From: a virus
Direction: 5' to 3' (one strand)
IMG/VR virus record: IMGVR_UViG_3300046809_000277
Location: 1-42,158 of that record
DNA length: 42,158 nucleotides
In this document: positions 14,141 to 34,925 of the stretch, in pieces
Numbering within the stretch: the stretch's first letter is position 1
Layout of the letters: each line of letters begins with the position of its first letter
Notes under the pieces: model-generated
The model's input: only the letters and a program-made list of their open reading frames with translations
The model's database searches: none
What the model was told of the DNA's origin: nothing
Made by a program: the position numbers and the translations under genes

Positions 14141-14161
14141 ACGTGTCTGGCGGGGGGAAAC
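14141..14161 (-). promoter_or_regulatory. C-tract motif copy A (candidate phage promoter)
   Basis: Minus strand: GTTTCCCCCCG, CCA, GACACGT, then TATAGG. One of eight copies of an element that always precedes minus-strand genes. It starts five bases after the stop of the 112-residue gene and lies about 104 bases before the HNH start, with a terminator in between. Confidence 0.75.
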
Positions 14162-15753: not shown

Positions 15754-15996
15754 TCACTGGACGGCGTCCAGCACGCGGGCATAGGTACCGGTGGACGGGT
15801 CGAAAGCCTCGGTTACGCGCTTGACGGCGGCCTCGACGGTGACGACGTCCACGAGGAACCAGTCGGCCACTTGCAGGACCAGCGCCACGCGCTCGGCGGG
15901 CTTGATCGTGCCATCGCTGTAGCCGCGCGAGTTCGCGCGCGGAGCGATGTCGTCGAGGAGCGCCACCGCAGCGGCGAGGGCTTCGGGTCGGGTCAC
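15754..15996 (-). CDS. Hypothetical helical protein
   Basis: 80 residues from a GTG overlapping the upstream stop (GTGA). VTRPEALAAAVALLDDIAPR leads to VALVLQVADWFLVDVVTVEA and AVKRVTEAFDPSTGTYARVL. The composition is that of a small soluble helical protein; the hydrophobic middle (about 18 residues) contains an Asp and is probably not a membrane span. Second gene of the operon. No family recognised. Confidence 0.6.
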   Translation of the reverse strand: MTRPEALAAAVALLDDIAPRANSRGYSDGTIKPAERVALVLQVADWFLVDVVTVEAAVKRVTEAFDPSTGTYARVLDAVQ

Positions 15997-16193
15997 TCGC
16001 CCACGCCCCGGAAGGCCGCGGTGAACTCCTCGGCGGTGGGGACTGGCGTCACACGGAACCGGCCGAGGCTGCTCAAGCTCTCGCCGAGCTTGCGCATGGC
16101 GTGGCGGAACTGCGCGGCCTTGACGGCGAGGTCTTCCTCGGGCGTGCGCGTACGGCACGCGCGATGTTCGGGGGACTCTGTCTGATCGGTCAT
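15993..16193 (-). CDS. Hypothetical protein, first gene of kinase operon
   Basis: 66 residues, MTDQTESPEHRACRTRTPEE at the start, then a charged helix (KAAQFRHAMRKLGESLSSL) and PTAEEFTAAFRGVGE. The ATG at 16193 is preceded by an AGGGAGAA ribosome site and lies 37 bases after C-tract motif copy B, making it the first gene expressed from that element. No family recognised. Confidence 0.65.
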   Translation of the reverse strand: MTDQTESPEHRACRTRTPEEDLAVKAAQFRHAMRKLGESLSSLGRFRVTPVPTAEEFTAAFRGVGE

Positions 16194-16229
16194 CGCTGGT
16201 TCTCCCTGGTCGGTGGGATTGCACTGATG

Positions 16230-16250
16230 ACGTGTCGACCGGGGGGAAAC
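16230..16250 (-). promoter_or_regulatory. C-tract motif copy B (candidate phage promoter)
   Basis: Minus strand: GTTTCCCCCCG, GTC, GACACGT, then CATCAGTGC. Lies between the integrase terminator hairpin and the first gene of the kinase operon (37 bases to the ATG). Copies G and H share the same flanks (CATCGGTGCAACC). Confidence 0.8.
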
Positions 16251-18666: not shown

Positions 18667-19266
18667 TTAGGCCGCGATGGGCTCGCGGGCGTCGAGGCGG
18701 TAAGCGGCCTCTATGTCGGCCAGCGCGACCGGAGCGGCGGGCCGGCGGGACGCACGGACGGGGCGCGAGGCAGCGGCGGCGGCGGCGAGCGCGGCCTGAC
18801 GGTTGGCCTCGCGGGTCGCGGCGCCGCGGCGGGCGCGCTCGGACCGGCGGGCCTGCTCCTCGGCGTCGATCGCGGCCTCGGCCTCGGGCTCGGGCTCGAC
18901 GACGGGCTCGGGCTTGGCCTTGAGGCGGCTCACGAACCACTCGGCGAGCAGGTAGGCGGCCACGGTCCAGAATCCGACGATGCGCTGAATGACGTTCTCC
19001 CCCACGGCGACGTTGGCCGCGATGCTCATGGAGCCGGCGAGGAGCAGCGTGGCCGAGGCGGCGCGACGCGACGTGTCGTCGGCCACGTCCGAGTTGCGGA
19101 CCATCGCCGAGATGAACGCCAGCACGTCCACCGTGAAGGGCACGGCGTAGGAGTACAGACCGCCGTTTGCGCGGAGCAACAGCGTCGTCTGATGCCCGTA
19201 GGACATGACGCCCGCGATGACGGCGATGGTCGAAGCGCTGACCTTGGCGGTCTTGAGGATGTTCAT
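18667..19266 (-). CDS. DUF2637-like multi-span membrane protein
   Basis: 199 residues. Four hydrophobic segments fall within residues 1-115 (SASTIAVIAGVMSYG; LYSYAVPFTVDVLAFISAMV; ASATLLLAGSMSIAANVAV; IVGFWTVAAYLLAEWFV). The VPFTVDVLAF motif resembles the PLSVDGL motif of DUF2637 proteins from Streptomyces plasmids and integrative elements. The second half is a charged, Glu-, Arg- and Ala-rich cytoplasmic tail. GGGGAGG lies six bases before the ATG. Transcription appears to start from the palindrome-overlapped promoter at 19335-19362. Role unknown; family members are linked to mobile elements. Confidence 0.65.
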   Translation of the reverse strand: MNILKTAKVSASTIAVIAGVMSYGHQTTLLLRANGGLYSYAVPFTVDVLAFISAMVRNSDVADDTSRRAASATLLLAGSMSIAANVAVGENVIQRIVGFWTVAAYLLAEWFVSRLKAKPEPVVEPEPEAEAAIDAEEQARRSERARRGAATREANRQAALAAAAAASRPVRASRRPAAPVALADIEAAYRLDAREPIAA

Positions 19267-19334: not shown

Positions 19335-19362
19335 ACTATATCACGCCCAACGTTGGGCGCAA
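19335..19362 (-). promoter_or_regulatory. Promoter TTGCGC-16-TATAGT overlapped by palindrome
   Basis: On the minus strand TTGCGC (19362-19357), 16-base spacer, TATAGT (19340-19335). The spacer contains CCAACGTTGGGCG, so a protein bound to the palindrome (core at 19349) would cover the space between -35 and -10. A second copy with one mismatch (19302) lies in the leader, 36 bases before the 19266 start. Confidence 0.8.
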
Positions 19363-19366: not shown

Positions 19367-19654
19367 TCAGGCTGCGAGGTCGAGGACGACGAACGAGCCG
19401 GTGCGGCCGAAGTGCGCGGCGTCGGCGCGGACCAGGGCGCGCGCGGCGGCCGTCAGCGCCTCGCTGAAGCTCGCCGGACGGGGGCGGCGGCCGGTCTCCT
19501 CGATCAGGTCGATACGGAGCGCGGACACCTGCGCGTACAGGTCCCACTCATCGGCGGGAGCGATCTCGCCGGACTCGACCAGCGCGGCGGCGGCGGTCAG
19601 CTCGGCGGCGGTGTCGATCAGTTCCAGGGCGACGGCTTCGGCGTCGAACGACAT
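19367..19654 (-). CDS. Hypothetical Ala-rich helical protein
   Basis: 95 residues, MSFDAEAVALELIDTAAELT at the start and GRTGSFVVLDLAA at the end; mainly helical and acidic. Ribosome site AGGAGA six bases before the ATG is strong. Single gene between two palindrome-bearing gaps. No family recognised. Confidence 0.65.
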   Translation of the reverse strand: MSFDAEAVALELIDTAAELTAAAALVESGEIAPADEWDLYAQVSALRIDLIEETGRRPRPASFSEALTAAARALVRADAAHFGRTGSFVVLDLAA

Positions 19655-19714
19655 GTCAGGTCTCCTGTTCGGGGTCCGGGGCCGGACCGGTGTCCGACCC
19701 CCATAGTTTGATGT

Positions 19715-19732
19715 GCGCCCAACGTTGGGCGC
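19715..19732. promoter_or_regulatory. Perfect 18-bp palindrome upstream of 19654 gene
   Basis: GCGCCCAACGTTGGGCGC, 61 bases before the 19654 start and seven bases after the upstream GNAT-like gene. The companion -10 is unclear here (AAACTAT a few bases downstream is the best candidate), in contrast to the copies at 19349 and 20172. Confidence 0.7.
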
Positions 19733-19738
19733 AGGTGC

Positions 19739-20113
19739 TCAGCGAGAGAGCGCCATGAACACGACGTCGGGCTGACCGGGCGTCCAGTTCGCCACGCGGT
19801 CGACCTCGACGAAGCCAAAGCGCCCGTAGAAGGTGGGGAGGTAGCCGTCGAAGCAATCGAGGGCGCACGCGCCGTTGAGAATCGCGGCGGTTACGATCGC
19901 GTCGCCACGGCCCTTGATGGTGGAGAAGACCCCCACCAGCTCGCCGCTGGCCTTGACCACGAACCCGCTGTTCGCGTCGGCGGTCAGGAAGCACAGCGCC
20001 TCGGCGACGTCCAGCTCAGCGGCCGAGGTGGTCGCGCCCGCGATGCGGGAATCAGCGGCCTGCGCGGCGGCCAGAGCGGCGATGTAGCTGGCGGCGGTGG
20101 TCTGAGCGAACAT
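19739..20113 (-). CDS. GNAT-like acetyltransferase protein
   Basis: 124 residues. The second half, with GELVGVFSTIKGRGDAIVTA and then LPTFYGRFGFVEVDRVANW, has the beta-strand plus FYxRxGF ending that characterises GNAT folds, and it stops close after that motif. It is shorter than most GNATs and the acetyl-CoA loop (Q/RxxGxG/A) is only approximated by IKGRGDA, so activity is uncertain. GAGGAGG lies six bases before the ATG. It is driven by the best palindrome-overlapped promoter in the window. Small GNAT-like proteins in phages can modify host proteins; no target is suggested here. Confidence 0.6.
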   Translation of the reverse strand: MFAQTTAASYIAALAAAQAADSRIAGATTSAAELDVAEALCFLTADANSGFVVKASGELVGVFSTIKGRGDAIVTAAILNGACALDCFDGYLPTFYGRFGFVEVDRVANWTPGQPDVVFMALSR

Positions 20114-20156: not shown

Positions 20157-20185
20157 ACTATACCTGCGCCCAACGTTGGGCGCAA
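20157..20185 (-). promoter_or_regulatory. Promoter TTGCGC-17-TATAGT overlapped by perfect palindrome
   Basis: Minus strand: TTGCGC (20185-20180), 17-base spacer, TATAGT (20162-20157). The perfect palindrome (20166-20183) spans from within the -35 to just short of the -10, leaving a start point about 35-40 bases before the 20113 start codon. This is the clearest promoter-operator pair in the window. Confidence 0.85.
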
Positions 20186-21499: not shown

Positions 21500-21599
21500 G
21501 GTGGGCGCTCCGAAGGAAGTTGCCCATCGCCTCGACCGCCTCGGGCAGCCCGATACGAGTCGCGGTGTGTTTCGGCTGGTGACGCTGGTTCTCGGGCAT
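21489..21599 (-). CDS. 36-residue hypothetical peptide, first minus-strand gene of divergent pair
   Basis: Reads MPENQRHQPKHTATRIGLPE and ends LRSAHRGR; basic and hydrophilic, with an EAVEAMGNFLR helix. GGAG lies four bases before the ATG. Its stop overlaps the start region of the cysteine-rich gene. It begins 110 bases from the plus-strand regulator gene, on the opposite strand, as cro-like genes do, but it has no evident helix-turn-helix. Confidence 0.5.
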   Translation of the reverse strand: MPENQRHQPKHTATRIGLPEAVEAMGNFLRSAHRGR

Positions 21600-21708
21600 G
21601 CTTCTCCGTAGGCTGATACGTGGTGATCTGATTCAAGAATGGGACGGCGCCGCTACTGCGCGTAAGTGGCCGAACCCCACCGTTGAAAGAGTGGGAAGGA
21701 GTGATCTT
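21600..21708. promoter_or_regulatory. Divergent regulatory gap of the candidate switch
   Basis: The 109 bases between the minus-strand small operon and the plus-strand regulator. No copy of the AACGTT palindrome or of the C-tract motif is seen here. On the plus strand TTCAAG, 16 bases, TACTGC is a weak promoter candidate, and the regulator's ribosome site (GGAAGGAG) lies at 21694-21701. Confidence 0.4.
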
Positions 21709-22536
21709 GTGAGCCCGCAGCGCTCGCTTGACCCGTCCGCGTCCCTCGCCCACCTCTTCGGATACGAACTCCGGACGTACCGCGAGCGGGCGAACCTGTC
21801 ACAGGACGAGTTGGGGATCCGCGTGAACTACTCGGATTCGCTGGTCGGCCAGATTGAGACGGCCCGGAAGGTGCCCTCTGAGGAGTTCGCGCGGAAGTGC
21901 GACGAGGAGCTTTCGGCCGATGGCCGGCTCATCCGACTGTGCGCCTTGCTGCTCAAGCGAGGGGAGCGCTTCCCCGCGTGGGCGCGGGACTATGTCGAGC
22001 TGGAAGCGCGAGCGTTGGAAATCCGCACCTACGAAACCCAACTCGTTCCGGGGTTGCTTCAGACCGAGGAGTACGCGCGCGCCATCCTGCGCGCCGGACG
22101 GCCGCGGGACACAGCGGAACAGGTCGAGGAGCGCGTCGCTGCCCGACTCGGCCGACAGGGCCTCTTGACGGCCGAGTCCCCACCCCTGCTTTGGGTCGTG
22201 CTCGACGAGGCGGTTTTACTCCGCCCCATCGGCGGGCCGGGCACGATGAAGGGACAACTTCAACGGCTGGTCGAGGCGGCGGACTCGCCGCACGTCGTGA
22301 TGCAGGTTCTACCGTTCGCCGCGGGCGCACACGCCGCGTTGGGCGGTTCGCTGGCCATCATCAAGGTCGACGAGGGCGACGTGGCCTACGTCGAGGGCTT
22401 AGACACCGGACGGCTTATTACCCTGGCCGAAGACGTGCGCGGGTATACCTTGGCCTACGATCTGGTTAGGGCCGGAGCGTTGCCACAGGCCGCCTCGGTG
22501 GCAATGATCCTCTTGGCATTGGAAGGTCTGACATGA
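21709..22536 (+). CDS. Helix-turn-helix/DUF5753 regulator (candidate lysogeny repressor)
   Basis: 275 residues from the GTG at 21709, preceded by GGAAGGAG at seven bases; a longer frame from 21598 has no ribosome site. An XRE-type helix-turn-helix occupies about residues 15-70 (ELRTYRERANLSQDELGIRV, NYSDSLVGQIETARKVPSEE). The rest is a DUF5753-type domain (FPAWARDYVELEARALEIRT, YETQLVPGLLQTEEYARAIL, VVLDEAVLLRPIGGPGTMKG), the WhiJ-like form abundant in Streptomyces. It overlaps the DUF397 gene by ATGA. This is the only plus-strand operon and the only clear helix-turn-helix protein in the genome, so it is the best repressor candidate. Its operator is unproven. Confidence 0.85.
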   Translation: MSPQRSLDPSASLAHLFGYELRTYRERANLSQDELGIRVNYSDSLVGQIETARKVPSEEFARKCDEELSADGRLIRLCALLLKRGERFPAWARDYVELEARALEIRTYETQLVPGLLQTEEYARAILRAGRPRDTAEQVEERVAARLGRQGLLTAESPPLLWVVLDEAVLLRPIGGPGTMKGQLQRLVEAADSPHVVMQVLPFAAGAHAALGGSLAIIKVDEGDVAYVEGLDTGRLITLAEDVRGYTLAYDLVRAGALPQAASVAMILLALEGLT

Positions 22537-22748
22537 ATCACGAAACTGACACCTCAACCCTCGTGTGGCGCAAGGCAAGCGCCAGCAACGGTCAGGGTGG
22601 GAACTGCGTTGAGCTGTCCCCGTTTGGGGACGGCGTCGCGGTCCGCGACTCCAAGGACCCGAACGGGCCGGTGCTGCACTTCACGCGCGCCGAGCTGGCC
22701 GCGTTCCTCGACGGGGCCAAGGGCGGCGAGTTCGACGACCTCGCCTAG
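22533..22748 (+). CDS. DUF397 protein, partner of the HTH/DUF5753 regulator
   Basis: 71 residues. LVWRKASASNGQGGNCVELS and GVAVRDSKDPNGPVLHFTRA are the diagnostic DUF397 core, ending in a helix (ELAAFLDGAKGGEFDDLA). DUF397 genes sit beside HTH/DUF5753 genes throughout Streptomyces, where some pairs control development (whiJ-like). The small protein is thought to modulate its regulator. The ATG overlaps the regulator stop. Confidence 0.9.
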   Translation: MNHETDTSTLVWRKASASNGQGGNCVELSPFGDGVAVRDSKDPNGPVLHFTRAELAAFLDGAKGGEFDDLA

Positions 22749-23260: not shown

Positions 23261-23656
23261 CTAGAACGTGTAGTCGTAGAACTCGTCACGGATGCCCAAC
23301 GCGAGCTTTGCGCCGTGGCGCGCGTCGGCCATCTTGACCGAGCCGGTCCACTGGTCGGTGTAGAGCTGACGGAACCGGCCCTTGGAGTCGAGGCGCCAGG
23401 TGGTCACGGGCGCGTCCTCGGCGCCGGGCTCATAGGTGTAGTCCTGCGCGTCGCTCATGCCGTAGCTGTCGACGCGGGTGACCTTGTCCTTGCGGATGTC
23501 GATTTCCTTGACCGACCCGTCGCGCTTGGTGCGGACGGCGACCACGGTACCGGCGTTGCGGTCGCTGTAGTGGCAGACCGTCACGCCCATGCCGACCTCG
23601 GGGGTGGTGCCGGTCGTCGCGGCGAGGTGGATGTTCGAGATGAGATTCATGGTCAT
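23261..23656 (-). CDS. Hypothetical phage protein
   Basis: 131 residues, MTMNLISNIHLAATTGTTPE at the start. VGMGVTVCHYSDRNAGTVVA, RDGSVKEIDIRKDKVTRVDS and VTTWRLDSKGRFRQLYTDQW suggest a small beta-barrel followed by a helical end with ARHGAKLALGIRDEFYDYTF. AGGAGA lies seven bases before the ATG. Proteins of this look recur in Streptomyces-type phages without assigned function. The palindrome-overlapped promoter at 23698-23727 drives it. Confidence 0.65.
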   Translation of the reverse strand: MTMNLISNIHLAATTGTTPEVGMGVTVCHYSDRNAGTVVAVRTKRDGSVKEIDIRKDKVTRVDSYGMSDAQDYTYEPGAEDAPVTTWRLDSKGRFRQLYTDQWTGSVKMADARHGAKLALGIRDEFYDYTF

Positions 23657-24317: not shown

Positions 24318-24520
24318 CAGCGGGAAGCCTTTCCGAAGAACGAGCGGAAGAGGGAACGCGGGCGCGTGCGGGTGACCGTGAGCCGGTCGGAGAAGCACTC
24401 CGTACAGATGTGGACCACGGCGCCGTGCCGGGGGTGTGCCAGCGTCGTACCGAGGCGGTCGGGGTGACACAGGCGCTCGCAGAACCCGCAGCGGCGCCAG
24501 TCGGTCCATGTGAAGCTCAC
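24317..24520 (-). CDS. Small zinc-finger-like protein coupled to sigma gene
   Basis: 67 residues from a GTG overlapping the sigma stop (GTGA). WRRCGFCERLCHPDRLGTTL followed by HICTECFSDRL gives CxxC...CxxC with an extra Cys and His, a treble-clef or zinc-ribbon arrangement; the C-terminus is basic (RPRSLFRSFFGKASR). Immediate translational coupling to the sigma factor makes it a candidate partner (anti-sigma or co-factor), though it lacks the standard anti-sigma HxxxCxxC motif. Confidence 0.6.
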   Translation of the reverse strand: MSFTWTDWRRCGFCERLCHPDRLGTTLAHPRHGAVVHICTECFSDRLTVTRTRPRSLFRSFFGKASR

Positions 24521-25515
24521 GCGGTCGCCCCCTCGGCGCCCTCGGAGACACCCAACGTTGAGCGCAGCTTGGCGAGCGCGGCGGCCTGAATCTGGCGCAC
24601 GCGGCGGCACTTCTCCCGCTCGCCCGTGCCCTTGGACTGCTCGACCGTCACCGTGAGGCCGAGCGCGTGGCCGGTCTCGGCTTCGGTGTGCACGGGGTGA
24701 CCGTCGAGGCCATACATGCGGGCGATCACCTCGCGCTCGCGGTCGTCGAGGCCGTCGAGCATCGCGGCCACCAGGGGCTCATGCGTAACGTTGGGCGTGG
24801 CGGCCTCCCAGAGGGACGCGATGGGCTCGCCGCCCTCGCTGTGCGAGCGGCGGGCCGTGGCCTCCAGAGCCTCGCCGTTGGCCTGCACCTCGCCGAAGTG
24901 CACGACGCGGCGAACGTGCCAGTAGTCGACGGTGGAGAGCCCGAACTCGGGGGCGATCTCGGCGGCGAGATCGTCGACGTAGGGGCCGGACCCGTCCTCG
25001 GCGACCGTCCGGCGGGCGGCCTCGTCGCGGGCCTTGGAGTAGGCGAGCCGCTGCGCCTCGGGAATCTTCATGCCGAAGCGGGCCGCGTGCACGACGTCGA
25101 GGGCGGCCAGAACCTCGCGCTCGATCGTGGCCACGGGCCGGCGGTGCTTGGCGGGGTCGAAGTTGTTGAGCCCGCGCCAAAGCCCCTCAAGGGCCGACTG
25201 TCGGATGTCCTCGGAGTCCGAGCGGCGAGAGTGGACGGAGACGATGCGCTTGACCGGACCGCCCACGTAGGCGGCCGTCAGAGCCTCCCTCGCGGCCTCG
25301 CGGGCGGACGAGGGCTCACCGGACAGGGCGAGTGCCACGAGGGCGGCCTCGTCGCCGACGATGGCGGCGTGCTCGTGCGCCCAGAGGTCGCGGATGGCGG
25401 CGGCCGTGATGCCGATGAAATCGTCGGCCAGGCGGGCGGCCTCGGCCCAGATGTCGCGGGCGTCGTCGGCGTCGTCATCGTGCGCAACGTTGGGCGTGGC
25501 GGCGAGGTGAGACAT
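24517..25515 (-). CDS. Phage RNA polymerase sigma factor
   Basis: 332 residues. A sigma-70 region 2-like segment lies at about 95-150 (DSEDIRQSALEGLWRGLNNF, DPAKHRRPVATIEREVLAAL), and region 4 at about 252-319 (LDGLDDREREVIARMYGLDG, then REKCRRVRQIQAAALAKLRS), very close to the region 4 motif of principal sigma factors, with an insertion of about eight residues before the recognition helix. A long N-terminal extension (1-90) has no clear counterpart. It should redirect host RNA polymerase to phage promoters. The ATG has AAAGG nine bases upstream. Its own promoter (25587-25615) is host-type. It heads an operon of overlapping small genes. Coding copies of the palindrome occur at 24554, 24787 and 25486. 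Confidence 0.85.
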   Translation of the reverse strand: MSHLAATPNVAHDDDADDARDIWAEAARLADDFIGITAAAIRDLWAHEHAAIVGDEAALVALALSGEPSSAREAAREALTAAYVGGPVKRIVSVHSRRSDSEDIRQSALEGLWRGLNNFDPAKHRRPVATIEREVLAALDVVHAARFGMKIPEAQRLAYSKARDEAARRTVAEDGSGPYVDDLAAEIAPEFGLSTVDYWHVRRVVHFGEVQANGEALEATARRSHSEGGEPIASLWEAATPNVTHEPLVAAMLDGLDDREREVIARMYGLDGHPVHTEAETGHALGLTVTVEQSKGTGEREKCRRVRQIQAAALAKLRSTLGVSEGAEGATA

Positions 25516-25586
25516 GGATGGATACCTTTCTGATTCGGGGTATAGCTATGCCCTCTGACCTGCGCAGACGCGGGGAGGGAGGCCAA

Positions 25587-25615
25587 ACGTTAGGCGTGAC
25601 TTTGGGGTTCGTCAA
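25587..25615 (-). promoter_or_regulatory. Host-type promoter of sigma gene overlapped by palindrome
   Basis: Minus strand: TTGACG (25615-25610), 17-base spacer, TAACGT (25592-25587). The -10 is itself the core of a palindrome variant (GCCTAACGTTTGGC). This is the best consensus -35 in the window, so the sigma gene is expected to be an immediate-early gene read by the housekeeping sigma and closed by whatever binds the palindrome. Confidence 0.8.
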
Positions 25616-26042: not shown

Positions 26043-26300
26043 TCAGTCGGTGAACCGGTGGCGAATGACCTGCGTCTTGATCCACTTGTCGGTGTAGAGC
26101 TCTCGCCGCTCGATCCGCGTGACCAGGTGCCGGCGAGGCGTGAAGGGTCGGTCCGTGATGAACTGCGCGACGGCGCGGCCGTAGTTCGCGAGGGCGTCGG
26201 CCTCGGTGGTCAGCCGGTCGATTACGACGCTGTCCACCGACCACTTGCCGGTGTTCCAGTCGAACGACTCGGACTCGACGCGGATGCGCCAGGAAGCCAT
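26043..26300 (-). CDS. Hypothetical small protein
   Basis: 85 residues from the ATG at 26300, 33 bases after C-tract motif copy C. MASWRIRVESESFDWNTGKW, then YGRAVAQFITDRPFTPRRHL and a basic C-terminus (RIERRELYTDKWIKTQVIRH). Likely a small beta/alpha protein. No family recognised. Confidence 0.6.
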   Translation of the reverse strand: MASWRIRVESESFDWNTGKWSVDSVVIDRLTTEADALANYGRAVAQFITDRPFTPRRHLVTRIERRELYTDKWIKTQVIRHRFTD

Positions 26301-26332
26301 GCGGGGTGTCCTCTCGTGGGGTGTCGCCGATG

Positions 26333-26353
26333 ACGTGTTCGGCGGGGGGAAAC
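26333..26353 (-). promoter_or_regulatory. C-tract motif copy C (candidate phage promoter)
   Basis: Minus strand: GTTTCCCCCCG, CCG, AACACGT, then CATCGGCG. It abuts the DNA polymerase terminator stem (26353-26387), so the GTTT of the motif doubles as the terminator U-tract. 33 bases to the 26300 start. Confidence 0.8.
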
Positions 26354-26394: not shown

Positions 26395-28299
26395 TCACGC
26401 GGGGACGAGGTGGGACGGAAGGCCGTAGCCACCCGCCCACGTCCGGCCGAAGATCTCGCCGTCCGTGGCGATGGGAACGCCCTTGAACGTCGTGGCCATG
26501 CACTCGCCCACGGCGCGCATCACCTCGGCCATGTCCGCGGCGGGCGCCTGCAAGATCAGTTCGTCGTGCACGGGCAAGAGAATGTGATCGAGCAGGCCGG
26601 CCGCGTGGACGTTGACGAGAGCCTGCGCGAGCAGGTCCCGCGCGGTGGACTGAATCATGTAGTTGAGACCTGCGTACGAGCGGTCACGGTCCATCGGAAG
26701 GTGCCGGCCGGTGGGCGTCACCACCTCGCGCTTGCCGTACTGCGCTTCGCGCTGAATGGCCTTGCTGTACCTCTTGACCTCGGGATAGACGCGGTCATAG
26801 GCGGCGATGGCGCGCTTCACGGACTCCATGGCGGCGCCGGTCTGGCGGGACAGCGTGACCGCCCCGCCGCCGTAGACCTTGCCGAAGCCCACGCCCTTGA
26901 GCAGTTTGCGGAGCTTCAGCGCGTCGCTTTCCTTCGCGTCGAGGCGAGCCATGAACTCGTCGACCGTGACGCCCTCGACCATCGCGGCCGTGAACGCGTG
27001 AAGGTCGCGCCCCTCGGCGATGGCCAGGCGCATCGCCTTGACGTCGGCCAGCGCGGCGAGCACGCGCAGTTCTACGGCCTGGAAGTCGATGCCGCCGATG
27101 AGTTGCCCGGGGTCGCTGACGAAACAGCGGCGAATCGTCCAGTCACCCGATGGCAACTGCTGGAGAGGCGGACTCGACACGGACATGCGGGCCGTGCGCG
27201 CCATCAGCCCGCCAAGCGAGGGGTGGATGCGGTCGTCAGCGTCGCGGAGGTCGAGCATCGCCTCGGCGTAGGAGACACGCCACTTGTCGGCGCGCTTCGC
27301 CCGTAGCACTGCCTCGGCTACGGGGTTGGGCTCTCGGGCGCCGATGCGCTTCCAGTCGCGGTCAAGGTCGCACAAGCTGAGCAGGACGGCGCGGTCTACC
27401 TTGAACGCGCCCGAGTCGGTCTTCTCAGTCAGCCGCTCGCCCATGTCGAGCAACTTGGCGGCGACCTTGGCGGGCGAGCCCACGGAGTCGACGCCGAGCG
27501 TGGCGGCCTTGCCGCGCCAGAGGTCGCCCTCGGCCCGGAGGTTGTTCGTCAGGGTCGTTGTGTACTCGACGTCAAGGCGCATCCCACGCCGCTGCATCAC
27601 GGCGAGGATGAGGGCGATCAGGTGCTCGAACTCGGAGAGTGCGCGCTGACCGGGGATCCCGGAGATCGCCTCCCACAGGCGCGTGTCGAGGCCGGACACG
27701 AGGAGCGTGTCGAGACCGGCATACGACAGGTAGGTGGGGTGATCGATGGGGATCCCGGACCAACCGGTGTCCTTGGTCAGGCCGAGCGACCGGAACACGG
27801 CCTTGAGGCCGTCCTCGGTGTCTGGCGCCGTGTGGTCGACGTAGACAGCCGAGAGATCCTTCAGCCGTAGGCCGATGCCGCCCTCGGACTTGGAACGGGG
27901 GTCGAGCAGGTGCGCATGGATCCGCGGGTCGCGGGCCTTGGGCATGAACTCCTCAAGCTTCACGCCGAGGTGCCGATCGATCACCTGCGCGTCAAAGGGC
28001 AGGTTGTGCGCGGTGAACGCGGGATAGGTGCGGAGCACGCGACGCGCGGCCTCGGCGTAGGCGGGGCTGGTCTCCACGGGCAGAACCCACGCCTCGCCCA
28101 TGTCGAGCGAGCCGAACTGTGCGGTGCGGAGCCGGTGCGAGCGGCTGTAGATGGCGAGGTCGTTGGTTTCGGTGTCGAAGCCGAGGCGGCGGGTGCCGGC
28201 GCGCTCGACGAACGACCAGAACCGGGGTAGCTCGCGCTCGGACTCGGGAACGAATGTGACGGTCTCTCGGCCGTCGAGGGTGTGGGGGAAGACGCGCAT
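26395..28299 (-). CDS. DNA polymerase I (family A)
   Basis: 634 residues; the phage replicative polymerase. The N-terminal 3'-5' exonuclease domain has RRLGFDTETNDLAIYSRS and later HNLPFDAQVIDRH and YLSYAGLDTLLVSG, giving proofreading acidic residues. The polymerase domain shows motif A GGIDFQAVELRVLAALADVK, motif B region LLKGVGFGKVYGGGAVTLSR and motif C LLPVHDELILQAP. No 5'-nuclease domain is present, so the length is normal for phage PolA enzymes. The ATG at 28299 follows a strong leader hairpin and motif copy D. Confidence 0.97.
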   Translation of the reverse strand: MRVFPHTLDGRETVTFVPESERELPRFWSFVERAGTRRLGFDTETNDLAIYSRSHRLRTAQFGSLDMGEAWVLPVETSPAYAEAARRVLRTYPAFTAHNLPFDAQVIDRHLGVKLEEFMPKARDPRIHAHLLDPRSKSEGGIGLRLKDLSAVYVDHTAPDTEDGLKAVFRSLGLTKDTGWSGIPIDHPTYLSYAGLDTLLVSGLDTRLWEAISGIPGQRALSEFEHLIALILAVMQRRGMRLDVEYTTTLTNNLRAEGDLWRGKAATLGVDSVGSPAKVAAKLLDMGERLTEKTDSGAFKVDRAVLLSLCDLDRDWKRIGAREPNPVAEAVLRAKRADKWRVSYAEAMLDLRDADDRIHPSLGGLMARTARMSVSSPPLQQLPSGDWTIRRCFVSDPGQLIGGIDFQAVELRVLAALADVKAMRLAIAEGRDLHAFTAAMVEGVTVDEFMARLDAKESDALKLRKLLKGVGFGKVYGGGAVTLSRQTGAAMESVKRAIAAYDRVYPEVKRYSKAIQREAQYGKREVVTPTGRHLPMDRDRSYAGLNYMIQSTARDLLAQALVNVHAAGLLDHILLPVHDELILQAPAADMAEVMRAVGECMATTFKGVPIATDGEIFGRTWAGGYGLPSHLVPA

Positions 28300-28363: not shown

Positions 28364-28377
28364 GGGTGTCGCGGATT

Positions 28378-28398
28378 ACGTGGTCAGCGGGGGGAAAC
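28378..28398 (-). promoter_or_regulatory. C-tract motif copy D (candidate phage promoter)
   Basis: Minus strand: GTTTCCCCCCG, CTG, ACCACGT, then AATCCGCG. The motif overlaps the last codons and TGA of the 28384-28809 gene (GVSPR stop), 79 bases before the DNA polymerase start. Confidence 0.75.
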
Positions 28399-28809
28399 GC
28401 CCAGCTCTTGCGCGAGTACGCGGAACTCAAGGCGCCTGATCGCGGCGTCGAGGACGCTGGCGGACTTGGCATCCTCGGTCAGGTCGAGGCGCTGCACATC
28501 GCGCAGGACGGCGAGCGTCCGGGCGGCATACGGCGCGGGCAGGGCAACGTCACCCCGGTCGAACACGGCTTGCGTGACGGCGAACAGGGCCGAGGACATC
28601 CGGCGCTGTTCCTCGCCGGTCACCTCGGTCGCCAGCGCGAGCAGCGCCTCGCCCACGACCTCCCGCTCTGGCCGGTTGTCGCGGTGGACCTCGGTCCAGA
28701 TGGCCACGAACTCGCGTTCCTTGACGGCGAGCCCGCGGAGGACGGCCTCACTGGGCAGGTAGCCCGTGGCGGCCATGCGGCGGATGACGATTTCGGCCTC
28801 GGGGGTCAC
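28384..28809 (-). CDS. Hypothetical protein of replication operon
   Basis: 141 residues from a GTG overlapping the ATPase gene stop (GTGA). The sequence is mainly helical: VTPEAEIVIRRMAATGYLPS, EVVGEALLALATEVTGEEQR, DAAIRRLEFRVLAQELGVSP. The size and place between helicase-like ATPase and polymerase suggest a replication accessory. No family recognised. Confidence 0.65.
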   Translation of the reverse strand: MTPEAEIVIRRMAATGYLPSEAVLRGLAVKEREFVAIWTEVHRDNRPEREVVGEALLALATEVTGEEQRRMSSALFAVTQAVFDRGDVALPAPYAARTLAVLRDVQRLDLTEDAKSASVLDAAIRRLEFRVLAQELGVSPR

Positions 28810-30308
28810 TTGCTGCCTCCCAACGTGTCGGCGATGTCTGCGATGGACTGCGGAGCGGCCCACTGCTCGCGCGCCTCGGGCGTCACGGTCGCGTGGATGA
28901 TGCGGAACCCGTTGGACTTCCGGTAGTCGATGCACAGGCCGGCGAGGGTCAGCGCGTGCTGTTGCTTGCGCAGGTGCGTGCTCAGGCTCTTGGGCGAGGA
29001 CGGCCACCACGCACGACCGGGCCGGCCGGCGTCGTCGGGGGCGTAGCGGCCGATGGCGGACAGCAACTCACCCGCCGTGCCGGACCACTCGCCGCCGTCC
29101 TCGGTCGCCACGGCGCGGAGCAGCGCGACGAGGACGGGCTCATCAAAGACACGCTCTATCTGCGCCTCGGTCGCCTCGCGGTTGAGGGCGTCGATGTACC
29201 CGGGGGAGTCGACGCTGTCCATCGCAACGAAGATCTTTGCGAAGTTGATGAACCGGTACCCGGACGTGTCCTCGGTCGTGATTCCGTCGAGGGCGACCAG
29301 CGCGGCGGCCATGTCGTCGAGCAGCGCGCCGAGGATGTGCGGGTGTGCCTCGCGGAGGTCGACCATCAGGTCATCGTCCGCGCGGATGTTCGCCACGGTC
29401 ATCCGCTCGAACTCAAGGAAGATCATGCGTTCCTCGGCGTCGGACTCCAGGCCGGCGGGCTTGATCTTGCCGGTAAAGATGCCCGTGCGCTTCAGCGAGT
29501 ACGCCACGGTGTCCGAGTTGGTGTAGAGCTTGCGCTCGACGACGCGATGACCGGTGACCAGCGAGCACAGCCAGTTGGATACGTCCTCTGACATCTTGGT
29601 CATGTTGTCGGCGGTCAGGAGATAGTTCGCCTTGGCCACGACGTTGTTCTCGCGCTCGGATTTCTTGAGGACGGCGCCCATCTCGGTCTGCGGTTCCAGG
29701 ACGTTCGCGAGCATGAGCCCGCGCGTCGTCTTGCCGGAGCCCTGCGAGCCGAGGAAGTAGATCATCGGGCGGGCGGTGTCCGGAAGCACCTGCGCGACCA
29801 GCCACCCCCACGCGATGCGGAACCGGTCGTCATCGGCGTCGAGGGCGAGCAGCGCGGCCAGCTCGGCACGCGAGCCACCGGACGAGGGGAAGGGAAGGGC
29901 GTTGGTCGTGGCCGAGCGGGTGAACAGGGCCGGACACTCCCAGCCGTGCCGGGGGTCGCGGACCTTCCAGCCGGCCGGCGAGACCTCGACATAGGCGCCG
30001 GTCGAGTCGCCGAGGTCGAGGTAAGTCGAGTCGCCCAGACGCGCCAGGCGGAGGAAGACCTCGCGCACGGGCGCGTTGCGGGTGACCGCGGACAGGACCG
30101 TGAGTGCACTGGTCATGACCTGCGGGCCGGGGATGTCCCCCGAGGACAGGAACGCGGCGGCGAGGTCGGTGGCGGCCTGGTCGAGCGTGAGCGCGACGCG
30201 GAGCGCGTTGTCACCCTTGGGGATGGCGTACGGCTCGCCTGCGGGCGTCCTGACGAACGTAAACAGGCGGTGCGCCTCGGCCACCACATCAGCGGCGGTG
30301 ATGGCCAC
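28806..30308 (-). CDS. Helicase/primase-like P-loop ATPase
   Basis: 500 residues. The P-loop MIYFLGSQGSGKTTRGLMLA is at about residues 186-205, with GAVLKKSERENNVVAKANYL and YLLTADNMTKMSEDVSNWLC following, and SLKRTGIFTGKIKPAGL and ERMIFLEFERM beyond, the core of phage D5/P4-like SF3 helicases. The N-terminal 180 residues may hold a divergent primase or DNA-binding region. The start is GTG 30308 with GAGAGG upstream. It lies 67 bases downstream of motif copy E and is followed with overlap by a small gene and DNA polymerase, so a replicative helicase role is likely. Confidence 0.75.
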   Translation of the reverse strand: MAITAADVVAEAHRLFTFVRTPAGEPYAIPKGDNALRVALTLDQAATDLAAAFLSSGDIPGPQVMTSALTVLSAVTRNAPVREVFLRLARLGDSTYLDLGDSTGAYVEVSPAGWKVRDPRHGWECPALFTRSATTNALPFPSSGGSRAELAALLALDADDDRFRIAWGWLVAQVLPDTARPMIYFLGSQGSGKTTRGLMLANVLEPQTEMGAVLKKSERENNVVAKANYLLTADNMTKMSEDVSNWLCSLVTGHRVVERKLYTNSDTVAYSLKRTGIFTGKIKPAGLESDAEERMIFLEFERMTVANIRADDDLMVDLREAHPHILGALLDDMAAALVALDGITTEDTSGYRFINFAKIFVAMDSVDSPGYIDALNREATEAQIERVFDEPVLVALLRAVATEDGGEWSGTAGELLSAIGRYAPDDAGRPGRAWWPSSPKSLSTHLRKQQHALTLAGLCIDYRKSNGFRIIHATVTPEAREQWAAPQSIADIADTLGGSK

Positions 30309-30374
30309 TGGGCATCATGCCTCTCGTCTGATTCGGTCCGAGCCGGGGCGTCCGGCCGGTTGCTTGCGCGGATG

Positions 30375-30395
30375 ACGTGTCAGTCGGGGGGAAGG
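30375..30395 (-). promoter_or_regulatory. C-tract motif copy E (candidate phage promoter)
   Basis: Minus strand: CCTTCCCCCCG, ACT, GACACGT, then CATCCGCGC. It overlaps the last codons and TGA of the 30380-30733 nuclease gene (GLPPD stop), 67 bases before the helicase GTG. Confidence 0.75.
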
Positions 30396-31109: not shown

Positions 31110-31268
31110 TCAGTGGGCGCCCACGGCGGTCAGCCACTCGACGATGCGGACGGCCGACCACAGGGCGACGCCGCCGAACGCGATGAGGAAGACGCCGATG
31201 ATGGCGAGGATGAGGTACGCGACGAACGTTGCGACAGCGCGGTTGGGCTCGCGCTCGTCGTCGCTCAC
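31110..31268 (-). CDS. Small single-span membrane protein
   Basis: 52 residues from a GTG overlapping the upstream stop (GTGA). A charged N-terminus (VSDDEREPNR) is followed by a long hydrophobic stretch (FVAYLILAIIGVFLIAFGGV) and WSAVRIVEWLTAVGAH. It sits after the directionality factor gene, in the same transcript. The function is unknown. Confidence 0.65.
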   Translation of the reverse strand: MSDDEREPNRAVATFVAYLILAIIGVFLIAFGGVALWSAVRIVEWLTAVGAH

Positions 31269-32017
31269 CGGACCGGACCGAGGAGCTTCAGCGCGGCGGT
31301 GTTGTACTCGACCAGCTTGCCGGCGCGGGCGCCGGTCTTGGCGGTGAAGGACACGCGCTCGATCGTGAGTTTCGCGCGGACCGGAACGGGCTCGCCGGTC
31401 TCGGAGTCCTCGGCGTAGTCGATGAGCTGCTGCTCGATCCGGTCGCGGTCGACCTGCTTGCCGATGCTCTTGCCGGTCGAGGAGTAACGGAACTTGCCGA
31501 GGTCCGAGGCGCGGCCGACGTCGCCCTGAATGGTGACGTTGCCCATGCTGTCGTCGAGGTGGAACCAGATCACCGTTTCCAGGGACGGACCGAGGCCGTC
31601 CGAGGCGAGCTTCAGCCGCTCGTCGAGGGTCATCTGTGCGTGGGGGTCGCGCTCGCCGTCCGACTTCATGGCGCCGTCGCTGGTGTAGACGACTTCACCG
31701 GCCCGGTTGCGCTGTATGAACTGCTGGCGGATCGCGCGCGGACCTTCCAGGACGATCGTGATGGACTTGGCGGCCGTGTAGACCTCCAACGCTTCCTCGC
31801 TCTTGGTCTCCCACTCCGCGGGAGCCTCGCCGCCGAGCAGTTCGTGAACGGCGTCAGCGATCACGGGGTCGCCGGTCGTCACGCGCCACTCGTTGAGGGA
31901 CTGCGGAGTCTTGTTGTCGTCGAGGTAGCCGGCGCGGAACGAGCCGACGACGTCGGCGAACTGCGCCTTGGGCTGCGCGTTCTGCTCCTCGGCGGTCCGG
32001 AAGATGTTGAGTGCCAA
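31265..32017 (-). CDS. Gp3-like recombination directionality factor
   Basis: About 250 residues. FRTAEEQNAQPKAQFADVVG, LNEWRVTTGDPVIADAVHEL, LGGEAPAEWETKSEEALEVY and a C-terminal SFTAKTGARAGKLVEYNTAA follow the Gp3-like family, whose phiC31 member turns the serine integrase into an excisionase. Size agrees. The start is taken as TTG 32017 (GAGAGG seven bases before it); no ATG or GTG fits as well. It lies with the replication genes, as in phiC31, away from the integrase. Match is by recall of the family pattern, not by alignment. Confidence 0.75.
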   Translation of the reverse strand: MALNIFRTAEEQNAQPKAQFADVVGSFRAGYLDDNKTPQSLNEWRVTTGDPVIADAVHELLGGEAPAEWETKSEEALEVYTAAKSITIVLEGPRAIRQQFIQRNRAGEVVYTSDGAMKSDGERDPHAQMTLDERLKLASDGLGPSLETVIWFHLDDSMGNVTIQGDVGRASDLGKFRYSSTGKSIGKQVDRDRIEQQLIDYAEDSETGEPVPVRAKLTIERVSFTAKTGARAGKLVEYNTAALKLLGPVR

Positions 32018-32081
32018 CGTGTTGCCTCTCTGGAAAAGCTGTCTGACGTGGGGAAAGGCCCCGGGGGGCTGACACCCTTTA

Positions 32082-32102
32082 CGTGTCTGGCGGGGGGAAG
32101 CC
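32082..32102 (-). promoter_or_regulatory. C-tract motif copy F (candidate phage promoter)
   Basis: Minus strand: GCTTCCCCCCG, CCA, GACACGT, then AAAGGGTGTC. 65 bases before the directionality factor start. Its GACAC can pair with GTGTC just downstream. A palindrome copy (32121-32126) lies 19 bases upstream, so the two motifs meet here. Confidence 0.75.
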
Positions 32103-32133
32103 CGCCCCGGGATGTGCGCAACGTTGGGCGTGA

Positions 32134-32523
32134 CTACTCGGGAAGAGGAAGGCCGGGCGGACGCGTGGGCTTGGGCTTGTTCACGCACTTGCCGGACTGG
32201 CCGAGAATCGTCGCGATGTTGCCGGACCGGCGGGATCCCATGTGGGGGAGCACGGACTCCATGACGGCGACGGCCTTGGGTCCGGACACCTCGGCGTGCC
32301 ACGTGGCCTGTGCGGGCGCCTGGTGGAGACGCAAGGTCACGTTGGACCCCATCAGCGTCGCGGCGCGGCCGACGACGTCCCGATCAGTCATGCCGACACG
32401 GACGCGGGGGTACCGGCCGCGGTGCATGTCGAAGGTGCCCTCACCTTCCAACAGGCCGGCGAGCCAGATGACGTCACGGACGTCGTCGAGGTGCGTGACG
32501 TTGTCGTTGGCGGGCGCGCTCAC
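32134..32523 (-). CDS. LAGLIDADG homing endonuclease-like protein
   Basis: 129 residues from a GTG overlapping the upstream stop (GTGA). VIWLAGLLEGEGTFDMHRGR carries one LAGLIDADG helix with the catalytic acidic residue, followed by PRVRVGMTDRDVVGRAATLM and YLPHMG-like strands (VMESVLPHMGSRRSGNIATI). A single-motif protein of this size would act as a homodimer. It is free-standing, not in an intron or intein that I can see. Such genes spread by cutting related phage DNA. Confidence 0.8.
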   Translation of the reverse strand: MSAPANDNVTHLDDVRDVIWLAGLLEGEGTFDMHRGRYPRVRVGMTDRDVVGRAATLMGSNVTLRLHQAPAQATWHAEVSGPKAVAVMESVLPHMGSRRSGNIATILGQSGKCVNKPKPTRPPGLPLPE

Positions 32524-32861
32524 GCGGACTCCTCGGGGGTGGTGGTGGTGTCGAAGACGGTGGAGAGCAGCCGGCGGGCCGTGTCCTCGTCCGTGCCAGA
32601 GAGCGCGGCGGACTGCTCGGCGGCCTGGCGGTAGGCGTCATCGGCGGAGGCGGCCACGGCGGCGTTCGCGCGGCACGCGGGACACTGCCCGCACTCGTAG
32701 GGGGCGACCAGCCCGAGGAAGACGAGGATCGCGTTCGCGTGGTTGAACGCGTCGGCGAGGGCGGCGACGGCGGACTCGGCGTCACCGGCCCCGGCGGCGG
32801 CGAGGTAGTTGGCGCGTGCGGCGGTGAAGCTCGCGGCGGCATCCTCAAGGGGTTGGAACAC
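32520..32861 (-). CDS. Hypothetical protein with Cys motif
   Basis: 113 residues from GTG 32861 (AGGA eight bases before it), 38 bases after motif copy G. Mostly helical, with FNHANAILVFLGLVAPYECG and GQCPACRANAAVAASADDAY, giving a CxxCxxC motif that could bind metal. Its stop overlaps the start of the LAGLIDADG gene. No family recognised. Confidence 0.6.
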   Translation of the reverse strand: MFQPLEDAAASFTAARANYLAAAGAGDAESAVAALADAFNHANAILVFLGLVAPYECGQCPACRANAAVAASADDAYRQAAEQSAALSGTDEDTARRLLSTVFDTTTTPEESA

Positions 32862-32973: not shown

Positions 32974-33801
32974 TCAGCCGGAGACGCGACGGCCTCGGCG
33001 GGCGGGCTTCTGCTCGGCGGCGATGGTCTCGAAGTCGAGGGTGTAGGCGGGCATGGGGGCGATCACTTCGCGTTCCTTGCCGTCGACCCACCGGAAGATC
33101 TCACGCAGGTGCAGAAAGTACTTGAAGACGTCCTCGTCGCAGTCGACCTCGACCACCTGAATCTTCTCGGGCCGGACGTGGACGACCAGCCCGCCGTCAG
33201 CCTTGGGCGTGGGCGTGGTCGAGCCGTCCGGACTGAGGATGTGGTCGGAGTAGCGATAGGCCGAGAGCTGCAAGGCGACCTCGGCGTGAATGCCGGAACG
33301 GGTCGTCTTGTAGTCGATGAACACGGGCTTGCCGTCGATGGAGCCGAAGGCGTCGAACGAGCCCGCATAGTCGTGCTGCTCGCTGTGAACGGTCTGTTCC
33401 TGCAACTCGACCTTGAGGCCGGTCTCGTCCAACATGCGCCGGAACAGTTGCGCGAACGGAAGCACGTCGGGCGAGAGCTTGGGATCCTTGCCGTTGGCGA
33501 TCTCCTCAAACGCGGAGTGCGCGAGCGTGCCGAGGTCGGCGGCGGCGCCGGTCGTGCGGCGGGGGGCGCCCTTGAGGTAGTCGATGGCGCCTTGACGGTC
33601 GCCCCGGAGAACGATGTTCACCATGTCGCCGAGGTGGTCGATGGCGTACTCGGCCACGACCTTCCCGGTCCAGTGCTGAAGGAAGGGCTTCGGAAGCATC
33701 CCGATGACCGAGGTAACTCCGGGGATCTTGAGGCCGGTGTCGGGGTGAACGTAGTAGCGAGACGCGCCGCGTGTGAGCGTGCGGACCTTGGGGGTCGTCA
33801 T
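32974..33801 (-). CDS. RecB/Cas4-like PD-(D/E)XK exonuclease
   Basis: 275 residues. GVTSVIGMLPKPFLQHWTGK and DLGTLAHSAFEEI are the N-terminal motifs, and YAGSFDAFGSIDGKPVFIDY followed by KTTRSG contains the D...(D)xK core (GSFD, IDYKTT), with a downstream QLSAYRY helix typical of the RecB-family nuclease motif. Probably the recombination exonuclease of the phage. The ATG at 33801 lies 44 bases after motif copy H. A candidate replication origin follows upstream. Confidence 0.85.
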   Translation of the reverse strand: MTTPKVRTLTRGASRYYVHPDTGLKIPGVTSVIGMLPKPFLQHWTGKVVAEYAIDHLGDMVNIVLRGDRQGAIDYLKGAPRRTTGAAADLGTLAHSAFEEIANGKDPKLSPDVLPFAQLFRRMLDETGLKVELQEQTVHSEQHDYAGSFDAFGSIDGKPVFIDYKTTRSGIHAEVALQLSAYRYSDHILSPDGSTTPTPKADGGLVVHVRPEKIQVVEVDCDEDVFKYFLHLREIFRWVDGKEREVIAPMPAYTLDFETIAAEQKPARRGRRVSG

Positions 33802-34202
33802 GGGTGGTGGTGCCTTCCCGAGCGGGGCGGTTGGTTGCACCGATGACGTGTCGCTCGGGGGGAAACGCGGGTGAGTGAATCAGGGTCGGAAGGGTCGCAA
33901 AACGCAGGCGAAAGCGGGCCGTTCCCGTGAAGTTCTTATATATAAAGAGAGGAGAAGAGTAGTAATGTCTGAATTGAGGGGGAAGGGGGAGGGCGCGCGG
34001 CCGGCGAGGAAGCGCGGCGGTTGACCCTTGCGACCCTGCGACCCTTGCGACCCTTGCGGCCCTCCAAAACGGGCATACGCGGGCGGAGCGGGACGTCATG
34101 AAGGGTCCGGCGCCCCGGATGCCCAAAAATGTGAGGGCCGCAAACCGTGTTGGCTTGCGGCCCTGCGGCCCTGCGCGTGCGACCCTGCGGCCCTGTGCGG
34201 CC
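33802..34202. other. Candidate replication origin (400-bp non-coding)
   Basis: No gene. It contains, in order, motif copy H; AGGGTCGC (33894-33901, inverse of the repeat unit); an AT-rich tract (33930-33980 with TTATATATAAAG) in an otherwise very GC-rich genome; about five GCGRCCCT-type units at 34022-34055; and about five more at 34156-34205. Iteron-like arrays next to an AT tract and beside replication genes are the usual look of an origin. Alternative readings are a promoter (TATATATAAG on the minus strand) or a protein-binding leader. Confidence 0.55.
33845..33865 (-). promoter_or_regulatory. C-tract motif copy H (candidate phage promoter)
   Basis: Minus strand: GTTTCCCCCCG, AGC, GACACGT, then CATCGGTGCAACC. 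44 bases to the exonuclease ATG. It lies at the downstream end of the candidate origin gap. Confidence 0.8.
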
Positions 34203-34817
34203 CTACTCCGCACCGGGCGGCGGCGGCCACGTCCGGATGATCTCGTGGGCGCGGGCGGAAATCCCCTCCAACAGGAGACGTGCCTCTCGGAAGTGCTCGG
34301 GGTAGTTCGGGCTTGCCCTCTCGGCGGCGCTGAGCGGCCGAACGGCGTTGAACACGGCCAGGACGCCGCGGAGGTATGCGAGGCGAGCCTCGGGCGTCTC
34401 CGGCACGCCCTCGACACCCGCGGCGGCCACTATGGCGGACGTCCGCTCGCGTAGCTCGGCCTGGCGCTCGCGCGGGTTCTCGGCACGGAGCCCGATGGCT
34501 TCGATGTCCTCGGGGGACAAGCGCTCGCGCAGCGCGTTGGCGATGTGGTAGCGGGCGAGCTTCTGAATGGCCTTGCCCTCGTCGGGGCTGAAGTTGGCGG
34601 CGCCGTAGAGGTCGGCGATGGCGGCGCGGTAGGCGCCCGTGCGCCCGGTCCAGTCCGGCTCTCCGGAGTCGGTGAGGAAGTGCTCACGGTAGCTGAGGGT
34701 TGCCTCGGCGAGGTCGCGGAGCAGCGCCGTCCGGCGGTCGCGGTCGTCGGCCGGGAGAGAGCGGATCGCGCGGAGGACGCGGGTGACCTCGGCTTCAGTG
34801 GCGCGCTTGGTGGACAT
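34203..34817 (-). CDS. Hypothetical helical protein, first gene of the replication arm
   Basis: 204 residues from the ATG at 34817. Helical and charged: STKRATEAEVTRVLRAIRSL, DEGKAIQKLARYHIANALRE, RLLLEGISARAHEIIRTWPP. No ribosome site is seen, and a TACGAT -10 ends six bases before the ATG, so the message could be leaderless. Next to the candidate origin, so an origin-binding or replication role is possible. No family recognised. Confidence 0.65.
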   Translation of the reverse strand: MSTKRATEAEVTRVLRAIRSLPADDRDRRTALLRDLAEATLSYREHFLTDSGEPDWTGRTGAYRAAIADLYGAANFSPDEGKAIQKLARYHIANALRERLSPEDIEAIGLRAENPRERQAELRERTSAIVAAAGVEGVPETPEARLAYLRGVLAVFNAVRPLSAAERASPNYPEHFREARLLLEGISARAHEIIRTWPPPPGAE

Positions 34818-34823
34818 GCGCTC

Positions 34824-34853
34824 ATCGTAGGGCGCAGCTTGCTGCGACAGCAA
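34824..34853 (-). promoter_or_regulatory. Host-type promoter for 34817 gene
   Basis: Minus strand: TTGCTG (34853-34848), 18-base spacer, TACGAT (34829-34824). A 15-bp inverted repeat, TTGCTG-TCG-CAGCAA, begins with the -35 and could be a small operator. Not the AACGTT palindrome. Confidence 0.55.
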
Positions 34854-34860: not shown

Positions 34861-34900
34861 CGCCCCGCCCAACGTCGACAGGCGACGATCGGGCGGGGCG
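34861..34900 (-). terminator. Terminator of the late operon
   Basis: CGCCCCGCCC and GGGCGGGGCG form a 10-bp stem, followed on the minus strand by TTTCGGTTTG. It ends the roughly 21-kb late operon after the endolysin-holin gene. A palindrome copy (34902-34907) sits between the gene stop and the stem, and a half-site lies in the loop (34871). Confidence 0.85.
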
Positions 34901-34925
34901 CAACGTTGGGCGCAACTAGGGCCTA

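Follow-up and report, generated by a model that had tools for sequence, protein, structure and literature searches.

The 42,158-base virus record analysed here over its whole length (the window) carries a 127-bp direct terminal repeat, has a GC content of 69% and holds nearly all of its genes on the minus strand, among them those for a serine integrase, primase, polymerase, exonuclease and tail proteins. The host of this bacterial virus is probably Streptomyces-like. A tRNA-Phe gene (gaa; 12442-12515, minus strand) lies close to the terminase region, and the gene at 34926-36371 (minus strand) contains a repetitive coding stretch with tandem-like repeats (35272-35780). A small HNH/LAGLIDADG-like endonuclease gene (32134-32523, minus strand) is located between the exonuclease and the gene in the RDF position, the same slot as in Arthrobacter phages. 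The gene of main interest is an open reading frame on the minus strand that encodes 332 residues, with an ATG start and the RBS AGAAAGG.

24517 to 25515, minus strand: sigma-70-family factor, region 2 at about residues 89-147 and region 4 at about 253-322 (Pfam, PHROG, family profile, Foldseek)
24607 to 24651, minus strand: net 14-residue insertion in the region 4 helix-turn-helix, absent in the relatives G001 and L025

In Pfam searches, Sigma70_r4 matched residues 253-288 (E 3.3e-6, 26.9 bits; cutoff 24.1 bits), and Sigma70_r2 matched residues 89-128 with this protein alone as query (E 1.3e-4, 22.1 bits, slightly below the cutoff of 24 bits). PHROG 351, 'RNA polymerase sigma factor', was also matched (E 6.4e-8). 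When the protein was considered together with 13 homologs from viral contigs, r4 was detected in 12 of the 14 members and r2 in 11, and a profile made from their alignment matched the SigA, SigB and RpoS structures end to end (best E 1e-18). Profile positions 22-261 were aligned to SigA 113-356, from region 1.2/2 through region 4 (E 1e-18), with regions 2, 3 and 4 in the same order as in SigA and a layout that is not that of ECF factors. An AlphaFold model of the protein was confident only within domains (mean pLDDT 65), and its top Foldseek matches were sigma factors. Judged from its sequence, the product is therefore a member of the sigma-70 family, as the first-pass annotation had proposed, on the strength of a region 4 score over the cutoff and of the SigA-wide alignment. 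That annotation had named the lack of any profile match to regions 2 and 4 as an outcome that would count against it; this outcome was not seen, with region 4 above its cutoff and region 2 just short of it.

An unusual N-terminal extension and a small insertion before the recognition helix had also been described. The extension is present, but it is not very unusual for the family, as the stretch ahead of the region 2 match is about 90 residues long here, compared to roughly 50-60 in the Arthrobacter homologs. The insertion was found as a net gain of 14 residues at about 290-303 (VTVEQSKGTGEREKC), in the turn preceding the recognition helix, and is private to this phage; at this site G001 and L025, whose sigma proteins are 79% and 68% identical to that of the window, read GLT-DRRIRQIQ and NLS-DRRIRQIQ, respectively. 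A search for prophage relatives in 84,980 genomes yielded no phage relative; its sole match was short, covered region 4 and came from a Pirellulales MAG.

Homologs of the sigma protein are encoded by 192 sequenced phages, directly after the DNA polymerase in every genome inspected, and tblastn of the window protein against those of Azeevirinae type gave values down to E 6e-11. Most are annotated only as 'DNA binding protein', and sometimes as 'RNA polymerase sigma factor' or 'RNA polymerase'. This naming would fit a DNA-binding protein derived from a sigma factor but no longer working as one, such as a repressor or anti-host factor, and so would the insertion in the helix-turn-helix and the weak region 2 score, which may point to a function lost in this phage. 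We consider this very improbable, as the alignment with SigA runs through regions 2 to 4 in their proper order, phages that carry the family also have promoter sets with the behaviour of sigma targets, and region 2.4 positions are over-represented among the residues associated with -10 bases, as described below. A working sigma factor is the reading followed here.

Immediately upstream of the gene, two overlapping features were located.

25587 to 25615, minus strand: host-type promoter of the sigma gene, TTGACG-17-TAACGT, kept in the window, G001 and L025, with an expected start near 25580
25579 to 25598, unstranded: palindromic operator copy over the sigma -10, a GCCTAACGTT variant (palindrome search, three-phage alignment)

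The promoter, TTGACG (25610-25615) followed after 17 bp by TAACGT (25587-25592) on the minus strand, is exactly the one claimed in the first-pass annotation, and the copy of a dispersed palindrome that had been placed over its -10 was confirmed. Both are conserved in the three phages, which supports the idea of a palindrome-blocked host promoter. When the upstream regions were aligned, cTTGAC and GCCTAACGTT were kept in all three, with an altered spacer. The consensus operator is CCCAACGTT, whereas the copy at the sigma gene reads CCTAACGTT in every one of the three, and this same C-to-T change creates the -10. The promoter was not listed by a generic sigma-70 promoter scan, because TAACGT is a weak -10. 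The sigma gene would be silent in the lysogen and expressed upon induction, from a start near 25580.

The palindrome consensus TGCGCCCAACGTTGGGCGCA was found at 10 sites with up to three mismatches (0.01 expected), and further, more degenerate AACGTT-centred copies were detected, including three inside the sigma ORF.

25479 to 25498, unstranded: operator-like palindrome in the sigma ORF, on codons ACG CCC AAC GTT
24780 to 24799, unstranded: operator-like palindrome in the sigma ORF, middle copy (palindrome search, codon alignment)
24547 to 24566, unstranded: operator-like palindrome in the sigma ORF, 3'-end copy, kept in G001 and lost from L025
23707 to 23726, unstranded: operator within the host-type promoter TTGCGC-18-TACGGT of gene 23261-23656
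20165 to 20184, unstranded: perfect operator in the -35/spacer of the host-type promoter TTGCGC-17-TATAGT of gene 19739-20113
19714 to 19733, unstranded: perfect operator 5' of gene 19367-19654
19342 to 19361, unstranded: operator within the host-type promoter TTGCGC-16-TATAGT of gene 18667-19266
32113 to 32132, unstranded: operator copy beside the RDF phage promoter, which it overlaps in L025

For two of the palindromes inside the ORF the codons are almost identical across the three phages (ACG/ACA CCC AAC GTT), with GTT representing about 8% of Val codons. The operators at 20165, 19342 and 23707 are perfect or near-perfect and cover the -35 and spacer in host-type promoters, a pattern that recurs at least five times in the third relative, which is available in two pieces (L025 and L026). 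As palindromes at 20177 and 19354 fall in the -35/spacer of other host-type promoters, the sigma gene would be one of several immediate-early targets. In the window and G001, the operator at the RDF-position gene directly precedes the phage promoter, and in L025 the two overlap (L025:3371-3404), which suggests that this gene, and with it excision, is doubly locked. Three operator copies in a row, in 24-bp steps, are present in the third relative (L026:9934-9982).

Host-type promoters of Arthrobacter phages carry other repeats. In L020, L022, L023, L027-L033 and L039, a second dispersed motif, CTGTTTACACG, directly follows the -10 (TATACT/TAGACT), as at L022:10886 and L022:11243, and GTTTACACG was found also just 5' of the polymerase RBS. 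In L024, L030, L033 and others (e.g. L024:7709-7800), a different dispersed inverted repeat, TTGCGTAAGnCGnCTTACG, occupies the spacers of such promoters, among them those 5' of their sigma genes, the operator sequence being altered and its position kept.

The dispersed palindrome could instead be a partition, packaging or host-regulator site, as the protein that would bind it is only putative and some copies fall inside structural genes (8558, 40213). However, the copies concentrate in host-type promoters at fixed places (TTGCGC-16/18-TATAGT) while others lie at the RDF promoter or cover the -10 of the sigma gene and that of the candidate repressor itself, and phiC31 has a parallel set of dispersed palindromes. 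Such an alternative function is therefore regarded as improbable, and the palindromes are taken below as repressor operators.

The candidate for this repressor is encoded in the slot that the c gene occupies in phiC31.

34203 to 34817, minus strand: candidate repressor of 204 aa, located before the exonuclease as c is in phiC31, with homologs in this slot in 97 phages
34817 to 34836, unstranded: operator-like palindrome, 7 nt from the ATG of the candidate repressor, with the -10 TACGAT of this gene inside it
34895 to 34914, unstranded: operator copy upstream of the candidate repressor (palindrome search)

The members of this family, found in about 97 phages, are mostly annotated as hypothetical; those of BaileyBlu and Yang appear as 'hypothetical protein' flanked by a kinase (dNMP or adenylate) and the exonuclease. 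In Streptomyces phage Samy a weak match was obtained with the putative immunity repressor, the gene of which was reported to be highly expressed in all conditions (PMC11302927). Another was with phiAAU2 ORF II, and the gene overlapping this ORF bears the name Aborting Lytic Development. At the start of the candidate gene (TGCGCCCTACGATGAGCGCATG), the -10 is within the operator-like palindrome and this arrangement is conserved in relatives; it looks like the layout of a leaderless, self-regulated repressor. The predicted structure is all-helical and confident (pLDDT 84). No recognisable HTH, PDB fold match or convincing Pfam or PHROG family was found for it, nor any profile match to the phiC31 c protein (hhalign probability 0.2%). 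This product is the likely repressor.

The only clear plus-strand pair of the window (21598-22748), an XRE-type HTH/DUF5753 gene followed by a gene with a DUF397-like start, was considered as repressor and rejected, as the stretch is unaligned in G001, though G001 keeps the same palindromes. Because of this lack of alignment the pair looks like accessory cargo.

A repeat search of the window revealed a second kind of dispersed sequence, reading TTTCCCCCCGnnnGACACGTCAT on the gene strand, in eight copies that are all on the minus strand (none expected in shuffled sequence).

33843 to 33865, minus strand: predicted phage promoter element TTTCCCCCCGAGCGACACGTCAT, upstream of exonuclease 32974-33801, kept in G001 and L025
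32897 to 32919, minus strand: predicted phage promoter element, upstream of gene 32520-32861 (repeat search, relatives)
32078 to 32100, minus strand: predicted phage promoter element, upstream of RDF-position gene 31265-32017 (repeat search, relatives)
30372 to 30394, minus strand: predicted phage promoter element, upstream of primase 28806-30308 (repeat search, relatives)
28375 to 28397, minus strand: predicted phage promoter element, upstream of DNA polymerase 26395-28299 (repeat search, relatives)
26330 to 26352, minus strand: predicted phage promoter element, upstream of gene 26043-26300 (repeat search, relatives)
16227 to 16249, minus strand: predicted phage promoter element, upstream of gene 15993-16193 and downstream of the integrase (repeat search, G001)
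14138 to 14160, minus strand: predicted phage promoter element, ahead of the stretch toward the terminase/structural genes (repeat search, G001)

The elements are followed by the exonuclease, RDF-position, primase and polymerase genes, by three small genes and, in one case, by the stretch toward the late genes. In most of the eight cases the distance to the start is 50-100 bp, and several copies come after a terminator-like hairpin of the preceding gene. Eight copies are also found in G001 and ten in L025/L026, where TTTCCCCCC is unchanged in most copies and CGTATC replaces CGTCAT. The new promoter class that the first-pass annotation had predicted for the sigma factor was thus located as eight promoter-like elements, and we infer that this factor reads them.

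The architecture of these elements is unusual. TTTCC lies about 12 bp from CGTCAT, which is short for a sigma-70 promoter, and a -35 at the canonical distance is not conserved in the elements of the window clade. A -10 shifted to the right (TCGGTG, 16-17 bp past GTTTCC) was discarded, since it is CACGT and not that hexamer that is conserved in G001 and L025, and so was a canonical -35 directly 5' of TTTCC, where the hexamers are unlike one another. Either region 4 contacts the DNA closer in, or another part of the factor or another protein reads the C-tract, or the -10 is misassigned.

This spacing would also fit a model with a genuine sigma factor in which a separate DNA-binding protein of the phage, such as an activator on TTTCCCCCC, reads the elements alone or jointly with it, the share of the sigma factor being the -10 part or nothing. 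The same model would accommodate the constancy of TTTCCCCCC beside a -10-like part that drifts between phages (CGTCAT, CGTATC, GTACC), and the fact that the element set is the same in the window and G001 despite the 14-residue insertion in region 4 of the window. Against it, a non-exhaustive search identified no conserved second DNA-binding protein, the elements of phiC31 are compact too, and the relatives have an undoubted -35/-10 architecture with variable 16-17 spacing before the same genes. On balance, we find the separate reader unlikely and favour direct recognition of the elements by the sigma factor.

This architecture of the relatives was recognised in the intergenic regions of five Arthrobacter phages, which pointed to TGAGCA-(16-17)-GGC-NNN-CTC/T; an unrestricted repeat search in Arthrobacter phages was swamped by codon bias, and intergenic inspection alone succeeded. 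The TGAGCA class was then seen in Zeta1847, Honk, Mysterium, Yang, Liebe, Cyan and eight prophage-like contigs. Among 19 phages of Arthrobacter, Microbacterium and Curtobacterium that encode homologous sigmas, 71 sites were found on the gene strand and 7 on the other (4 of these in Zeta1847), with a total of about 1.7 expected from shuffles. The sites precede exonuclease, RDF, primase and post-integrase genes, as seen in Liebe, where the second of these is the RDF-position gene. The spacer differs by one base within a phage, which fits a -35/-10 promoter.

In L029 and L034, TGAAC replaces TGAGC and the recognition helix reads SRLK[VI]QRTRxR. In Dismas and Armstrong, which have a divergent region 4, the TGAGCA class was not above background. 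The set of TGAGCA/TGAAC, 16-17 spacer and GGC was sought in G001 and L025 and was absent there, the TTTCCCCCC element being present instead. The strongest reason to assign the elements to the sigma factor is this coincidence of a different element, in the same places, with a different region 4.

Nearly every phage uses a single NNN triplet in its -10, and this triplet varies from phage to phage, with 11 values among the 19 (GCA, CGT, GGA, CCC, GTC, CGA, AAC, CAT, TCC, CCT and TCT); Mysterium is mixed (CGA, GGA). When protein columns were scanned against the triplet in these phages, residues 131, 133, 134, 136, 137 and 143 (numbered as in the window sigma, in the predicted helix 127-147 of region 2.4) were among the strongest associations, triplet base 1 being paired with residue 136 and base 2 with 134/137; no column passed Bonferroni correction, and relatedness was not removed. 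A Mantel comparison of triplet and protein, also with relatedness not removed, gave weak correlations (region 2, r 0.27, p 0.003; region 4, r 0.18, p 0.056). Residues of region 2.4 are thus a lead as setters of the -10 triplet, which is possibly read by residues 131-143 of this helix. We see about an even chance that the actinophage sigmas, a large family, have diversified their -10 specificity phage by phage, the -35 staying TGAGCA, and that the window clade has gone further, with a C-tract much nearer the -10 in place of the -35. In that case, many such phages would own a near-private, orthogonal promoter set.

The early region of phiC31 has the same gene order as the window (exonuclease-RDF-primase-polymerase-sigma), with the annotated sigma factor gp12 after the polymerase, 15 palindromes and 10-11 compact elements. 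These intergenic elements (GGTTGCCGACTCCCTTAC) are located before the same gene classes, and also before the late tRNA. Both phages have a set of near-identical phage promoters before early genes, and the sequence of these promoters differs between the two phages. The early promoters of phiC31 require lytic development, and its repressor binds its dispersed palindromes. In contrast, the sigma, element, palindrome and repressor sequences of phiC31 are all unlike those of the window; gp12 was rejected as a sequence homolog of the window sigma (no BLAST match, poor alignment), and its gene has a compact element in front (29908), whereas the window sigma gene has a host-type promoter under an operator. 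In mycobacteriophage L5, many dispersed repressor sites, the stoperators, are also present in one genome, but these are asymmetric and oriented with transcription, unlike the promoter-tied 20-bp palindromes of the window.

The Azeevirinae and other Arthrobacter, Microbacterium and Curtobacterium phages are closer, with a homologous sigma after DNA polymerase I as in the window, a homologous candidate repressor in the same slot and phage promoters before the same genes. Their promoters differ in having a -35 TGAGCA (TGAAC in L029 and L034) at 16-17 spacing and a -10 triplet specific to a phage or small group, whereas TTTCCCCCC of the window clade is closer to the -10. A precedent for phage sigma factors with promoters that can be computed from sequence is provided by phiEco32 and 7-11, whose predicted cognate promoters are low-copy conserved intergenic elements (PMC4331800). 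Those are enterobacterial lytic phages with no repressor gate, and no sequence relation to them was shown.

Taken together, we think it quite probable that this temperate actinophage enters lytic growth through a repressor-gated cascade of phage-sigma transcription. During lysogeny, the repressor, most likely the product of 34203-34817, would bind the dispersed copies of TGCGCCCAACGTTGGGCGCA and so mask the sigma promoter at its -10 and the other immediate-early promoters at their -35/spacer. Once repression is lifted, host RNA polymerase would transcribe the sigma gene from its host-type promoter, and the sigma factor would then take the host core polymerase to the eight compact promoters. 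These would drive the exonuclease, RDF, primase, DNA polymerase and integrase-near genes, and probably the late genes.

A phage sigma factor gated by a repressor and endowed with its own promoters is a kind of system already known; the promoter set of this sigma family, the diversification of its -10 and the short-spaced variant of the window clade appear to be new. If this interpretation is right, the gene labelled 'DNA binding protein' in about 190 actinophages encodes a working sigma factor, the promoter set of which can be written down from sequence, and the short spacing in the window clade represents an unusual promoter layout for a sigma-70 protein. The natural series of sigma factors and promoters with different -10 triplets would make the residues that determine -10 specificity directly testable, and could possibly provide orthogonal promoters for Streptomyces and Arthrobacter. 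It would also show how lytic growth is timed in temperate actinophages, with the repressor gating the sigma factor and the sigma factor gating replication, excision and the late genes.
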